This document shows positions 2,908 to 42,475 of a DNA stretch of 48,772 nucleotides, in pieces (within the stretch, counting starts at the first letter, position 1; each line of letters begins with the position of its first letter). The DNA comes from a virus, in the IMG/VR virus record IMGVR_UViG_3300043436_000835, positions 1 to 48,772 of that record; one strand, 5' to 3'. Below the pieces are notes generated by a model. It was not told the origin of the DNA. It ran no database searches and worked only from the letters and a program-made list of their open reading frames with translations. A program made the translations under genes and the position numbers.

Positions 2908-3073
2908 GCAGATGTGCCTCGATTGCATCAGCAGCTTTGCGGAGCCGCCGTGCCCACGTTTGCAGAACAACATCTGAGGGCATCCGCCTGCGCACTATGG
3001 CTGAGGCAATGCCACCCGAGATTCCCGATAGTATGTTGTCAAGCTGTGCCAAGAATGTTTCTGACGGACTCAT
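2897..3073 (-). CDS. Short helical protein (58 aa) between exonuclease and nuclease genes
   Basis: An ATG at 3073 overlaps the stop of the exonuclease gene (ATGA), and the frame runs to a TGA at 2897-2899, filling the gap exactly. The product is helical and basic (IVRRRMPSDVVLQTWARRLRKA in the middle, quoted in part). The perfect fit between both neighbours is the main evidence that it is real. No function is recognised. It may be an accessory subunit of one of the two flanking nucleases. Confidence 0.6.
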   Translation of the reverse strand: MSPSETFLAQLDNILSGISGGIASAIVRRRMPSDVVLQTWARRLRKAADAIEAHLHGS

Positions 3074-3738
3074 CTCAGGTGAAACTCCGCTGTGTGCAAA
3101 ACGTCACGGTCAAAGTCTTGACGCAAGACCCACCGCAGATAATCCTTTGGAACTTCGGACCACAGCTGATTTGCGTGCTTACCAAAGCGGACCTTCTTTT
3201 GCAGGACAGGGGCCTTTGTGAGCTCTACCAGCTCCGCTACCGACTTGCCCGAGTCTGCCACAATACGGGCGTAGAGTTTGGCAGTCACCCACGCATCATA
3301 GAGGGCACGGTGCGCCATTCCCCCCGCCTCGGGCGGGAGGTCGGATACGTCGAGGCCTAGTTCGTAGCGGAGTGATTGGTTGGAGTGTGACTCAGCATCT
3401 GGGTAGATGTGTAGGGCACAGCGCCACGTGCAGATCCAGTCTTTAGCGCGCAACCACTCGGGCATGAAGCTCATGTCGAAACCTGCGTTGTGAGCCACAA
3501 GGACCACGTCATCTTCAGGGGAAACAAAATTGCTGATAACATCATCCAAGGGCGGGGCATCTTCCACCATGTCGGGGGTGATGTGGTGGGTGGCCATTGC
3601 TCCAAAGCTGATTGGAGTAGTCGGCTTAACAAGGCTGTGATACCAGTGCTCATCAATAACTGCTGCGAACTCAACAAGGCTGTTCGTGGCTGCTTCAAAT
3701 CCGGTTGTCTCAGTGTCGATAACGATGACTTGTCGCAT
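3070..3738 (-). CDS. DnaQ/ExoI-like 3'-5' exonuclease (222 aa)
   Basis: The DEDD exonuclease motifs are clear: IDTETTGFE near residue 7 (Exo I), VLVAHNAGFDMSF near residue 80 (Exo II) and MAHRALYDAWVTAKL near residue 141 (Exo III, DEDDh type with the histidine). The C-terminus has FGKHANQLWSEVPKDYLRWV, like the small domain of PF12843 (quorum-regulated virulence factor family) that often follows phage exonucleases. It probably trims DNA during replication or repair. The family A polymerase nearby has its own exonuclease, so this one is likely a separate processing nuclease. A GAGGT lies just before the ATG. Confidence 0.88.
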   Translation of the reverse strand: MRQVIVIDTETTGFEAATNSLVEFAAVIDEHWYHSLVKPTTPISFGAMATHHITPDMVEDAPPLDDVISNFVSPEDDVVLVAHNAGFDMSFMPEWLRAKDWICTWRCALHIYPDAESHSNQSLRYELGLDVSDLPPEAGGMAHRALYDAWVTAKLYARIVADSGKSVAELVELTKAPVLQKKVRFGKHANQLWSEVPKDYLRWVLRQDFDRDVLHTAEFHLR

Positions 3739-3770
3739 GGCGACCTCATTTGTTAGTGTGTCGGGTGCGG

Positions 3771-37609: not shown

Positions 37610-40600
37610 TTAACCGAATGTTGCCTTCATTGTTCCACCGCGCTTGCGGGCATCCATCACAGCCGCCGTGGTCACCTTAGAGATTTGTGGAATCATCTTG
37701 GTGATTTCACGGCGAACAGCCTCAGAGTCAGATCCAGTTACGCTGATGTTGTTTGTCACGGTGATACCACCAGTGCCGGACGCCGCCACACCGAGCTGAC
37801 CACTTGGTCCGCGCTTGAGCGGGAGGATTGCTTCTGGGCCAGCTTCACCCATGAGACCCGTGCGACCATTGGACATCGGGAACAGCGTCGGCCGCGACAC
37901 CACACCGCCATCAGCGTACGGAACCACGGATCCGTTTGAGAAAGCGTTGCCGTTCGCGCTGCCAAACAAATTGTTGATCCCACCGGACACAGCGTTCACG
38001 ATGCGCTGTACGACGATGACTCGATACAGTTCCGAAATGACCGCACGTGCCATGTCTTTGAAGGCGTCTTTTACAGACTTTGTCCCATCCACAATCGACA
38101 TCAAAGCGTCACCAACTTGGTCCCCGATGAAGTTAGACAGGCGCTCCATCTCTTGGCGTTGCTCGATAATAGCACGCTCATGCTCGAGGATGGCAATAGC
38201 GTTCTGTATCGCACCTTCCGTGTAGTCTTGGTCAGCCTTTGCAACAGCCATACGAACATCACGCTCAGACTCAGACACACCGAGAAGCTCACGCTCAAGC
38301 TCAACGCGCCGGATGAGCTCGATGAGCGGATCATCTTTGCCGCCACCACCCTTCTTATCCTCACGCTCAGCATCCCGGCGCTCTTTTACAATTGCACTGA
38401 TCTCTGTATCGAGACTTAACTCTTTTTGCTTAGAAGCAATAAAGGCATCTAGTTCTGCCTGTGCCCCGGCACGAATAGATGCCTCACCAGCCCCAAGAGC
38501 GGGGGAGAGGCGTGCGCGCTCTGTGGCAATCGTCCCGGCAAGGCCAGCTTCTGCTTCACTCTGACCAGCGCGGAGCGCTGCAAGTCTTGCTTCTTTGCCA
38601 ATATTGCTAAGGCCCAAGCTGGCGATTTGGCCCTGGATTGTGGTGATCAAGCCAACGATACCATCAAACTCAGCCTTGGCTCGAGCAGCTTCATCAGCAA
38701 AGCGAGAAGATTCATCCGTAGCTGCGACCATCTCGTCATAGCTGTCGCGCAAGATCTGTCTAAGACTATCTTCAATATCAAGTGCATTCACGCGTGCGAA
38801 GTATGCCTCACGTGCTTGCTGAGCCTTGACTGTTTCTACACCGATAGAGTCCTCACCGTAGCGGAGGATTGCTTCCTGCAACTCTGTTTGATTATGCAGA
38901 GTCGTGAGCATCTCTAGGCCCTTTGACAAATCTCTGGCACGGGCTTCAGCAATTTTTTCAAGTTCTCTTAGACGTTTTTCTTCTGCTTTAGCTGCATCTT
39001 CCGCAGCTTCCGCAGCATCTTTAGCTGCTTCTGCAGAACCATTCATTTCAGCATTGGCCTGAGCAATCAGCTTATACATGGCATCAAGCTGTAGAAGGAA
39101 AACCGCACCATCACTAATGGTTCCATCCATATCAACAAGCTGACCACTTGGGATCGCTTGTTTGATCATCTCAGACATCGTATTTGCAACAGCTTCGACA
39201 TCTCCCGCATTTGCAGCATTTGCCATACCCGTCATCATACCTTCGAATACGTCATACCCGATGTTCAGCCCTAGCTTCGCAAAGTTTTGCTGACGAGAAC
39301 CTTCAGTCAGGTTGGCGTCGATCAAAGCACCACCGGAGAGAGACGTAACAAAAGCATTTCTAATCTGTTGACCCAGTCCAGGCTCGATAAACTCTTGTTT
39401 GATTGCCTTAATTGACTTCTGAAGGTTGGACAGGAGCATGGCGCGATCAAGTTCGACGGTCGCTTCCGTAACGCCTCTGACTTGCTCAGCAAGATTACCA
39501 AATTCTTCATCAAGATCCAGATTACGGATCAAGCCAATAGAGTCGCCGTATTTCCTAACAGATGTTTCTAACTCATCCACACTGTCTTTCAAAGATGCAG
39601 CTTCACCAGATGTCAATACAAAGTAGCTCGCAACCGCCGCCATGATTGCCACGACCGCACCAGCCGCCGCACCAAAAGCACCAAACATCCCAAGAAATTG
39701 CGGAGCCTGTTGGCCGAATGCAACGATAGCGCTCGTGCCACCTTGTACCTGAACAGCAAAGTCAGCTACCTGATAACCAGCGTTCTGCACACCCCCGCGA
39801 GCCCAGCGTTGCCAGCTCGTCGCATCACGTGATAGAACCTCTCCGTTCTGGTTGACGATGTGACCCATCGCCTCAATACGGGAGTTGGTGGCTGCCATAA
39901 TCTGAGCAGCTCTGTCAGCACTTATAGCTCCTGCCTCAACACCCTGTGTCGTGACGCGAACAGCGCGATCGTAAAGTTGTTGTGCGCGTGCTGCAACCTC
40001 GACTGTAGACGTGAGGCTGTCTATCTCTGCCTTGAGTTTTCTCGTAGCTGCGGCCTGCTTTTCTTCCTCAGCACCACCAGCAGCACCCTGTTTTGCATTC
40101 ACAGCAGCAATATCTTTTGCGAGTTGAGCATCAAGACGCTTCTCAGCAGCGATTCGTTGCTCCAAGGTTAGGATACGTTTAGCTTCAGCTTGATTGAGAA
40201 CATCGATGCCAGCATCATACTTCTGCTGAGCAGCAACTAGAGGATCAAGACTTGCAGCGAGACGATCGTACGCCTCTTGGGCATTTTGGATCTCTCGGGT
40301 ATGTTCAGCTGTTGCTCTGGCAACACGCTCAATCTCAGCCGTGCGTTCAGCCTCAGACGCGGATGCCATCTTCTGTTGGAGCAAATCCATCGCACGAGCA
40401 CGCTGTTGCTCATTGATTACGTTTGCCTCAAGAGCAGAATCAAGCATCTCAATGCTGCGTGCATACTCCAACTGAGCCCTGTTCAGCGGGTTGAATGATG
40501 CGACGAGGTCCTGATACGCCCGCTCTAAGCCAGAAGCTGTGCGAACAAGGTTTTCATACTCACGAATTTCACGTTGGATGGCCCGCTCAATGGCTTCGGC

Positions 40601-40738
40601 TGCGCGAATCTCACGCTGGGCACCTTCTTCCATTGAACGGACTGCGGCATCCCTAGCACGAACAAATCGCTCGACTGCCCCACGTGCTTCGGCCTCACCC
40701 TCGGCTACAAGGATTACACCGATCTCACCCAGATCCAT
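37610..40738 (-). CDS. Tail tape-measure protein (1042 aa)
   Basis: It is the largest protein here, Ala/Glu-rich and helical at its first part (ERFVRARDAAVRSMEEGAQ, ERARAMDLLQQKMASASEAE-like coiled coil), with a hydrophobic span (FGAAAGAVVAIMAAVASYFVL). The end carries YADGGVVSRPTLFPMSNGRT and LMGEAGPEAILPLKRGPSGQ, a motif kept in lambda-like tape measures and gene transfer agent gp11. It sets tail length. The first 14 bases overlap the chaperone frame, as expected for tail chaperones before the tape measure. Confidence 0.93.
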   Translation of the reverse strand: MDLGEIGVILVAEGEAEARGAVERFVRARDAAVRSMEEGAQREIRAAEAIERAIQREIREYENLVRTASGLERAYQDLVASFNPLNRAQLEYARSIEMLDSALEANVINEQQRARAMDLLQQKMASASEAERTAEIERVARATAEHTREIQNAQEAYDRLAASLDPLVAAQQKYDAGIDVLNQAEAKRILTLEQRIAAEKRLDAQLAKDIAAVNAKQGAAGGAEEEKQAAATRKLKAEIDSLTSTVEVAARAQQLYDRAVRVTTQGVEAGAISADRAAQIMAATNSRIEAMGHIVNQNGEVLSRDATSWQRWARGGVQNAGYQVADFAVQVQGGTSAIVAFGQQAPQFLGMFGAFGAAAGAVVAIMAAVASYFVLTSGEAASLKDSVDELETSVRKYGDSIGLIRNLDLDEEFGNLAEQVRGVTEATVELDRAMLLSNLQKSIKAIKQEFIEPGLGQQIRNAFVTSLSGGALIDANLTEGSRQQNFAKLGLNIGYDVFEGMMTGMANAANAGDVEAVANTMSEMIKQAIPSGQLVDMDGTISDGAVFLLQLDAMYKLIAQANAEMNGSAEAAKDAAEAAEDAAKAEEKRLRELEKIAEARARDLSKGLEMLTTLHNQTELQEAILRYGEDSIGVETVKAQQAREAYFARVNALDIEDSLRQILRDSYDEMVAATDESSRFADEAARAKAEFDGIVGLITTIQGQIASLGLSNIGKEARLAALRAGQSEAEAGLAGTIATERARLSPALGAGEASIRAGAQAELDAFIASKQKELSLDTEISAIVKERRDAEREDKKGGGGKDDPLIELIRRVELERELLGVSESERDVRMAVAKADQDYTEGAIQNAIAILEHERAIIEQRQEMERLSNFIGDQVGDALMSIVDGTKSVKDAFKDMARAVISELYRVIVVQRIVNAVSGGINNLFGSANGNAFSNGSVVPYADGGVVSRPTLFPMSNGRTGLMGEAGPEAILPLKRGPSGQLGVAASGTGGITVTNNISVTGSDSEAVRREITKMIPQISKVTTAAVMDARKRGGTMKATFG

Positions 40739-41087
40739 CGTCAGGCTCCTCTTTCTTGCTCAGGAAAACCACGTCGAGCTTCTTTATCGTCGAGACTTCC
40801 CACGGACTAAGAGTCCACCCCGTCAGTTGGCTCCAGAAGTGTATGTCCTGGAAGCTGATGGGGTTTGGACCATTTATACCATACGACCGCCCCTGATGTA
40901 TAGACAGAAAGTGGTCCCAGACGTGTCTGGCTACGTCTGGAAAGTCAGGCAACCTAAGCTCTTCCGGTGCAACACCTGTGACCTTTTCCTCCTGCTCAAG
41001 ATGCAAGCGCAGTGGGACACCCTCAACCAGTTGGTCGAGGGCGAACCTGCGTTCAGCATAGTCTAGGAGGGTTTCGGTCAGACGCTC
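40725..41087 (-). CDS. Tail assembly chaperone T-like part, made by -1 frameshift
   Basis: The frame is open upstream to the slippery site at 41087-41093 and has no convincing own start: the first possible start is a TTG at 41006, without a ribosome site. A -1 slip adds 120 residues to the first 130 of the G-like gene (about 250 in all). The part GRSYGINGPNPISFQDIHFW, QLTGWTLSPWEVSTIKKLD is typical of the second tail chaperone, with which the tape measure is loaded. It is the second part of the G/GT pair of lambda-like phages. Confidence 0.82.
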   Translation of the reverse strand, partial: ERLTETLLDYAERRFALDQLVEGVPLRLHLEQEEKVTGVAPEELRLPDFPDVARHVWDHFLSIHQGRSYGINGPNPISFQDIHFWSQLTGWTLSPWEVSTIKKLDVVFLSKKEEPDDGSG

Positions 41088-41476
41088 AAAAAAGCTTGAG
41101 TGTCCTCCATTTCGATTTCAATATTCTCTCGCATCCACGGAAAACGCTGGAAGATGCTGCGAACATTGGATGGAGTGCATTCTGGAACGCTTCCATCCAA
41201 CTGGATGTTCCAAGAATCAACACACCCAACAGTGAGGTCAAGGCGGTCAGCAAGGATTTCTTCTGCCGTCAACTTCATCTTGCCACCGCGCTCAGCGCGC
41301 TTGAGGCGGGCATTCTGCTGATTCTGCTGAATTTCGCGGTAACGCTTGCTGTACTTCCCGTGAACAGTGATGGTCATATCAGATCCATCATCATTCACCA
41401 TAGCAGTGTTGTGGACGGGATGGTAAAGCTTGACTACAGACGTGTCAGACTTAACCTCAAGCGAATTCAAATCCAT
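41078..41476 (-). CDS. Tail assembly chaperone G-like (132 aa)
   Basis: The ATG at 41476 has an AGGAG about ten bases upstream. It codes for a helical protein (KYSKRYREIQQNQQNARLKR, then FQRFPWMRENIEIEMEDTQA, each a fragment) of the right size and position for the first tail chaperone, between the tail tube gene and the tape measure. Its last codons contain the slippery site T TTT TTG. Some ribosomes shift and make the longer fusion with the frame 40725-41087; the others end at 41078. Confidence 0.82.
   Translation of the reverse strand: MDLNSLEVKSDTSVVKLYHPVHNTAMVNDDGSDMTITVHGKYSKRYREIQQNQQNARLKRAERGGKMKLTAEEILADRLDLTVGCVDSWNIQLDGSVPECTPSNVRSIFQRFPWMRENIEIEMEDTQAFLSV
41087..41093 (-). promoter_or_regulatory. 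Programmed -1 frameshift slippery site T TTT TTG
   Basis: On the minus strand the heptamer T TTT TTG lies in the zero frame as GCT TTT TTG AGC GTC TGA, just before the stop of the chaperone G-like gene. A slip of one base back leads into GAG CGT CTG ACC and an open frame to the T-like part with no stop. This is the classic X XXY YYZ form. The position at the G/T junction is exactly where tail-chaperone frameshifts occur. Confidence 0.85.
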
Positions 41477-41560: not shown

Positions 41561-42475
41561 TTACGCTGCGTAGGTGCGAACAATCTTAAGGTTCGTAGCC
41601 TCGGCATCGTTATACTCCGCAATGAACGGAAGCGTGATAACCCGGCCCTGCGGGTTCGCAACGGGAACGGCTGCTCCGTTGTACTTCACGCTCGGGAACA
41701 CAAATTGCAGAGAGTTGGCACCCGTACCATCGTCAACAGTGACTGCGATGGAAGACGTGGTCTCGTTCAGGAACTTGTCGATGAGCGTTTTGTTCTGGTA
41801 ACGCACAGTCATGGTGCCCGTGATCACAGCGTTGCCGAAGTCTACAGCCGCTGAGAGCGGAGTACCAATGACCGGAACGTTGGCGCGGGAGTTGTCGACC
41901 GTGAAATCAAGAGAAGTCACGATACCAAGCGACGAACCACCCTCAAGCATAGCCCCAAAGCTGTCATACGGCTCGTAACCTACATCAGCAGTCGGTGCAG
42001 TGCCCGATGCTGACGTAGTCAGCTGCGTCATGTCACGACCAAGCATATTGAAGGTTGCCTGCACCATCTGATCAGGCACGATGCTGACTGACATCGAGTT
42101 AACAGTCATCCCTTTGAACGCACGGTATTGCACCATGTCAGTCGCTTGATCTTCAATAGTGAAGAACTTGTTCGTGCTGCCAACCTTAAGAACGTTGGAC
42201 GCCCACGTACTCATCAAAGCAGATTCCAAAAAGGTGTCATAGCTTCCACGGCGAAGATCAACCTCAATTGATCCAGAAGCAGTCTTCGGACCGTGGCGAG
42301 AGCTTCGTGGAATACGGTCGCCACGAATATCGTTAGCTTCCATCAGGGTTTTCTGCAGATCAAGACTGTGTGTCCGATACGGCAGCGTAATCAGGGTGGG
42401 GGTGGTTGGGGTCGTTCCGTAAGTGGATTCTACCACATAGGCGAGTCTGGCCTTGGAACCTTGAGCAACAGTCAT
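41561..42475 (-). CDS. Major tail (tube) protein (304 aa)
   Basis: The start MTVAQGSKARLAYVVESTYG and TLITLPYRTHSLDLQKTLME with RSSRHGPKTASGSIEVDLRR are the signature of phage tail tube proteins of the PF18906 type (a first strand with 'Y..E.tyGt.P', a 'G.G.i..el'). The rest is beta-rich, with an Ig-like C-terminal part (VITGTMTVRYQNKTLIDKF). It forms the tail tube. It is likely one of the most abundant proteins, in line with the attenuator-like hairpins after it. Confidence 0.88.
   Translation of the reverse strand: MTVAQGSKARLAYVVESTYGTTPTTPTLITLPYRTHSLDLQKTLMEANDIRGDRIPRSSRHGPKTASGSIEVDLRRGSYDTFLESALMSTWASNVLKVGSTNKFFTIEDQATDMVQYRAFKGMTVNSMSVSIVPDQMVQATFNMLGRDMTQLTTSASGTAPTADVGYEPYDSFGAMLEGGSSLGIVTSLDFTVDNSRANVPVIGTPLSAAVDFGNAVITGTMTVRYQNKTLIDKFLNETTSSIAVTVDDGTGANSLQFVFPSVKYNGAAVPVANPQGRVITLPFIAEYNDAEATNLKIVRTYAA

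Follow-up and report, generated by a model that had tools for sequence, protein, structure and literature searches.

A probable -1 frameshift on a U-run links two tail chaperone frames in a virus of bacteria and its relatives

Tail gene order and the two chaperone frames

The analysed window, the whole 48,772-nt stretch, is a virus record and belongs to a virus of bacteria. A nucleotide search against sequenced phages returned no match, no relative was found in the bacterial genome contigs searched, and no phage-encoded tRNAs were found. The minus strand carries the late genes: tail terminator, tail tube, G-like, T-like, tape measure and distal tail, in that order. Two overlapping open reading frames lie between the tail tube and tape measure genes, as in lambda-type G/GT pairs; the first-pass annotation had described the arrangement as known from lambda-like phages. 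The genes of this region are as follows.

41561..42475, minus strand: tail tube protein gene, directly 5' of the G-like gene (Pfam PF18906 Phage_tube_2, E = 2e-49)
41078..41476, minus strand: G-like tail assembly chaperone gene in the 0 frame, 132 codons, ATG at 41476 and TGA at 41078
40725..41086, minus strand: T-like part in the -1 frame, 120 codons plus stop, TGA at 40727-40725
37610..40738, minus strand: tape measure protein gene (PHROG 1538, E = 9e-19)

The G-like ATG at 41476 is preceded by AGGAG, a good Shine-Dalgarno sequence. At the other end of the pair, the T-like frame overlaps the tape measure ATG at 40738.

The T-like sequence matched Pfam PF23812 (Phage_TAC_18) with an E-value of 4.2e-17, and all 20 of the 20 aligned family members matched this entry as well. 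For G, the window protein matched PHROG 313 ("Tail assembly chaperone") with an E-value of 5.5e-5, and the same PHROG matched 8 of 21 G family members (best E-value 1.9e-14). Taken from the window protein by itself, the G-like assignment would be a weak one. The HK97 chaperone 2ob9 was the third match to the predicted G fold (TM-score 0.47 by target length), with an insignificant E-value of 1.6. Sequence comparison of G with solved structures gave nothing meaningful, and the fold search with T returned no meaningful match. Given the gene order and homology, a lambda-like G/GT chaperone role would be the natural reading; if the two products act as lambda gpG/gpGT do, the tape measure protein would be coated by the short form, and recruitment of tail tube subunits would fall to the long form.

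The slip site and the expression of the T-like frame

The two frames meet at the following site.

41087..41093, minus strand: slippery heptamer T_TTT_TTG in the 0 frame of the G-like gene, with the core tetramer U_UUU at 41093-41090

On the minus strand, the 3' end of the G-like gene reads CAA GCT TTT TTG AGC GTC TGA. The heptamer begins in the fifth codon before the stop; TTG is followed by two sense codons and then TGA, and the heptamer's G at 41087, common to both frames, is the first base of the T-like part. The first-pass annotation had placed the heptamer in the right frame, five codons before the G stop, with the -1 frame open through to the T-like stop at 40725 and a fusion of about 250 residues. 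Direct reading agrees with both placements, and the fusion produced by a -1 shift at the heptamer is exactly 250 residues long. The description of the site as a perfect T heptamer is inaccurate, as it consists of six T's and a G. In the selected open reading frames of the window, 25 in-frame XXXYYYN heptamers occur in 14,879 codon positions; of these, T_TTT_TTG alone lies 10 or fewer codons from the end of a gene, and no other comes close to its -1 opening of 122 codons.

IMG/VR contained two near-identical pieces (L001/L017 and L005/L082) and three distinct close relatives, L018-L020, with protein identity of 73-77%. The junction GCTTTTTTGA is retained in all close relatives and the heptamer is unchanged in L017-L020, so that the comparison among relatives proposed earlier as a check yielded exact conservation. 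All four clade members have GCT as the Ala codon 5' of the heptamer, although only about 41% of Ala codons in the pool are GCT; the third base of this codon goes unread in the -1 frame after the shift. No synonymous changes were observed in A128-F129-L130, compared with 22 of 74 comparable G codons identical in all four members. This conservation lends modest support, since the overlapping frame accounts in part for F129 and L130.

An independent T protein would require its own start, and the first possible start codon in the T frame lies well inside it.

41004..41006, minus strand: TTG, first possible T-frame start codon, T residue 29

According to this alternative, the T run is a coincidence and T is translated separately, by ribosomes that start at TTG 41006 or re-initiate once G has ended. 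A weak GAGGG does occur 13 nt upstream of the TTG, where a predicted hairpin has its 3' arm, and the G stop shares two of its bases with a CTG (cTGA). The first-pass annotation was thus right in naming TTG as the first start, while its statement that no ribosome site is present was nearly but not fully correct. However, the TTG is not conserved, its position being occupied by the Ala codons GCT or GCG in the three close relatives, and many relatives have CTA or some other codon in place of the overlapping CTG. In L019 and L020, no ATG, GTG or TTG is found in the T frame across all 121 codons; independent initiation therefore cannot be the conserved route. Among the marine relatives, the first possible T start is at residue 87 (L081) or residue 70 (L054, L064, L070).

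Furthermore, codon evolution follows the T frame over the 28 codons that separate the slip site from TTG 41006, with substitutions falling mostly at T-frame third positions. The window differs from L018 in this stretch by 26 substitutions (6/1/19 at T-frame codon positions one, two and three), from L019 by 21 (5/1/15) and from L020 also by 21 (6/5/10). T residues A12, E13, F16 and L18, all 5' of the TTG, are conserved family-wide, and the AlphaFold2 model of T (pLDDT 89) contains a confident helix at residues 2-19, likewise upstream of the TTG. Selection on the T frame in these codons and the lack of usual start codons in two close relatives support the earlier claim that the fusion is needed to express T, and leave separate translation of T very improbable.

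Frame relationship and site classes in the wider family

A profile search yielded 80 loci, and the 79 examined represent 44 distinct IMG/VR junctions; ten sequenced phages were also read in detail. Each of the 44 distinct junctions, and each of the ten phages, has T in the -1 frame relative to G. Homopolymer runs are error-prone, and a sequencing error or a decayed gene might produce a break of this kind, but the same break recurs in independent contigs and in phage genomes of very different sequence, which makes such an origin a negligible concern.

Of the 44 distinct IMG/VR junctions, 41 retain the core U_UUU, whereas the codon that follows is variable. The A-site codon is UUG in the window, L018-L020, L026, L078, L088, L093 and Caulobacter phage DMCA, and UUC in Mesyanzhinovviridae and Vibrio phage VhaS-tm. 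In the marine branch that includes Roseobacter phage CRP-6, U_UUU is followed by ACG, ACC, ACA or AUG. The Pasteurella/Mannheimia types (L083, L085, L096; phages Pm86 and 1152AP2) carry G_GGA_AAC or G_GGA_AAG at a slightly upstream position, and the site of sewage phage 438212 is U_UUC_ACG. Within this family, the earlier suggestion that T-type sites are rarer than G GGA AAG fails: the U-run is the rule, and GGGAAAC/G is confined to the Pasteurella/Mannheimia types. On the protein tree, the four site classes need four changes, compared with a shuffled mean of 17. From these sequences no direction can be given for the changes, because support for the deep nodes is poor and DMCA sits on a very long branch.

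The variation in the run also bears on whether the frame changes during transcription, by polymerase slippage on the T run, rather than on the ribosome. The window has six T's, and poly-T can cause such slippage. Most relatives, however, have only four (TTTTACG, TTTTATG) and keep the frame transition; as four T's are too short for typical polymerase slippage, this explanation is unlikely for the family, and we regard it as marginally less credible even than a separately translated T.

The conserved heptamer in close relatives and the invariable -1 position of T across the family, together with two close relatives lacking ATG, GTG and TTG in T and the T-frame codon evolution 5' of the TTG, make it highly probable that a programmed -1 frameshift yields a G-T type chaperone fusion.

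In the window and the marine branches, the 0-frame stop is always exactly two sense codons past the A-site codon. The stop overlaps a T codon for Leu, Val or Ile, which may be why the distance does not vary; the pattern was seen in L018-L020 and the marine loci.

Annotation of the fusion was absent from every phage record fetched. In CRP-6 (L007, MK613348.1), the fusion at 3001-3743, with the site GAT TTT ACG, is deposited as two separate hypothetical proteins. In Pseudomonas phage Epa5 (L102), Ab18 (L013), phiH1 (L103) and PAKlein3 (L104), T either lacks an annotation or has been assigned an arbitrary start within its frame.

Slippage mechanism, candidate stimulators and known systems

In the proposed mechanism, the majority of ribosomes would finish the G-like chaperone at the 41078 stop. 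On U_UUU_UUG, where tRNA-Phe reads UUU and tRNA-Leu reads UUG, a smaller fraction would shift back by one base and carry on in the -1 frame to 40725, giving the G-T fusion; the T domain would then be present only as an extension of G. Tandem slippage of both tRNAs appears to be the simplest reading for the window. Alternatively, tRNA-Phe may slip alone on U_UUU in the window, and for the marine branch no option other than this is evident. We give roughly even chances to a broader interpretation, in which the real signal of the family is the tetramer U_UUU, read by tRNA-Phe alone, the window heptamer is one variant of it, and the tail frameshift of the marine branch, CRP-6 included, is obligatory and takes place on U_UUU with ACN or AUG as the next codon.

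Among bacterial tetramers, U_UUC and U_UUU are the best after A_AAG, require a strong stimulator (Sharma et al. 2014, PMC4066793) and are used by IS elements (PMC4066793). Heterogeneous sites with UUG in the A site are weaker shifters in E. coli than those with UUY (PMC4066793), so the efficiency of the window's UUG site may be low. In the literature searched, no tail chaperone report of the bare U_UUU + ACN/AUG class, which has been described for IS elements, was found, and none that tied TTTTTTG to a tail assembly chaperone.

Two candidate stimulators flank the heptamer.

41103..41108, minus strand: GGAGGA, a Shine-Dalgarno-like candidate for a dnaX-like stimulator, 9 nt upstream of the heptamer
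41019..41042, minus strand: predicted RNA hairpin of 9-10 bp, 44 nt downstream of the heptamer

GGAGGA is present in all four clade members at a spacing inside the published stimulator range of 6-17 nt. GGAGG is expected there with P ~0.64 in each from amino acids and codon usage, so that selection for GGAGGA as a stimulator is not significant given the coding and its role is at most a possible one. The hairpin had z-scores of -4.5, -3.2, -2.5 and -4.4 against codon shuffles in four relatives, for a stretch picked after the folds had been seen. Pair changes in these four were one-sided only, with no compensatory pairs, and the Rfam search gave no match. A second T region predicted to be strongly structured, relative to codon shuffles, was observed at window positions 40877-40803 (T codons 72-96) and in several relatives. 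The hairpin is a doubtful candidate for a classical stimulator on account of its overlong spacing, the lack of two-sided covariation and the equally strong structure of another T region.

Frameshifted tail chaperones are textbook knowledge, and U-run sites have been published for SPP1, 9g and Adele (PMC6316719, PMC4276943, PMC12846349). What is new here is a well-supported further case; less expected is the apparently obligatory use of bare U_UUU by a large related marine branch. The fusion gene of this virus was previously unannotated and is now well supported, and chaperones related to Phage_TAC_18 that are deposited as separate "hypothetical proteins" merit annotation as frameshift fusions. 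The family offers, at one homologous position, a natural A-site series of UUG, UUC, ACG, ACC, ACA and AUG in addition to GGGAAAC/G, a series on which the rules of -1 frameshifting in bacteria can be tested directly.

The lambda slip site is G_GGA_AAG. Here, in contrast, the site is U_UUU_UUG and the T domain is Phage_TAC_18. The present locus resembles lambda gpG/gpGT in the order tube-G-T-tape, in a -1 frameshift near the end of G and in T occurring only as a fusion. The lambda G/GT frameshift is a published precedent (Levin 1993; Xu, Hendrix and Duda 2004; reviewed in PMC5009743).

Another precedent is the tail chaperone gene of Bacillus phage SPP1 (gp17.5/17.5*), with a predicted -1 shift on the U6 heptamer UUUUUUC (PMC6316719); its Z base is C instead of G, and it infects another host group. 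A homologous -1 T is located at the same place in Mesyanzhinovviridae (Ab18, Mallos, A1432, Donnerlittchen) and VhaS-tm, on U_UUU_UUC, and in Caulobacter phage DMCA, on U_UUU_UUG as here. Compared with the window, the 0-frame stop in most of these phages is farther downstream, and they are deposited as separate ORFs. CRP-6 and the marine IMG/VR relatives share the homologous G and T, the same junction and the -1 position of T, but have only U_UUU followed by ACG, ACC, ACA or AUG, with no full heptamer. U-run slip sites (GTTTTT; CCCUUUUUUU) are also described in the tail chaperone genes of Pseudomonas phage Adele/Andersonviridae (TAC-N/TAC-NC; PMC12846349) and of E. coli phage 9g (PMC4276943). 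Adele differs from the present case in being a myovirus, and 9g in that it is reported to shift by -2.
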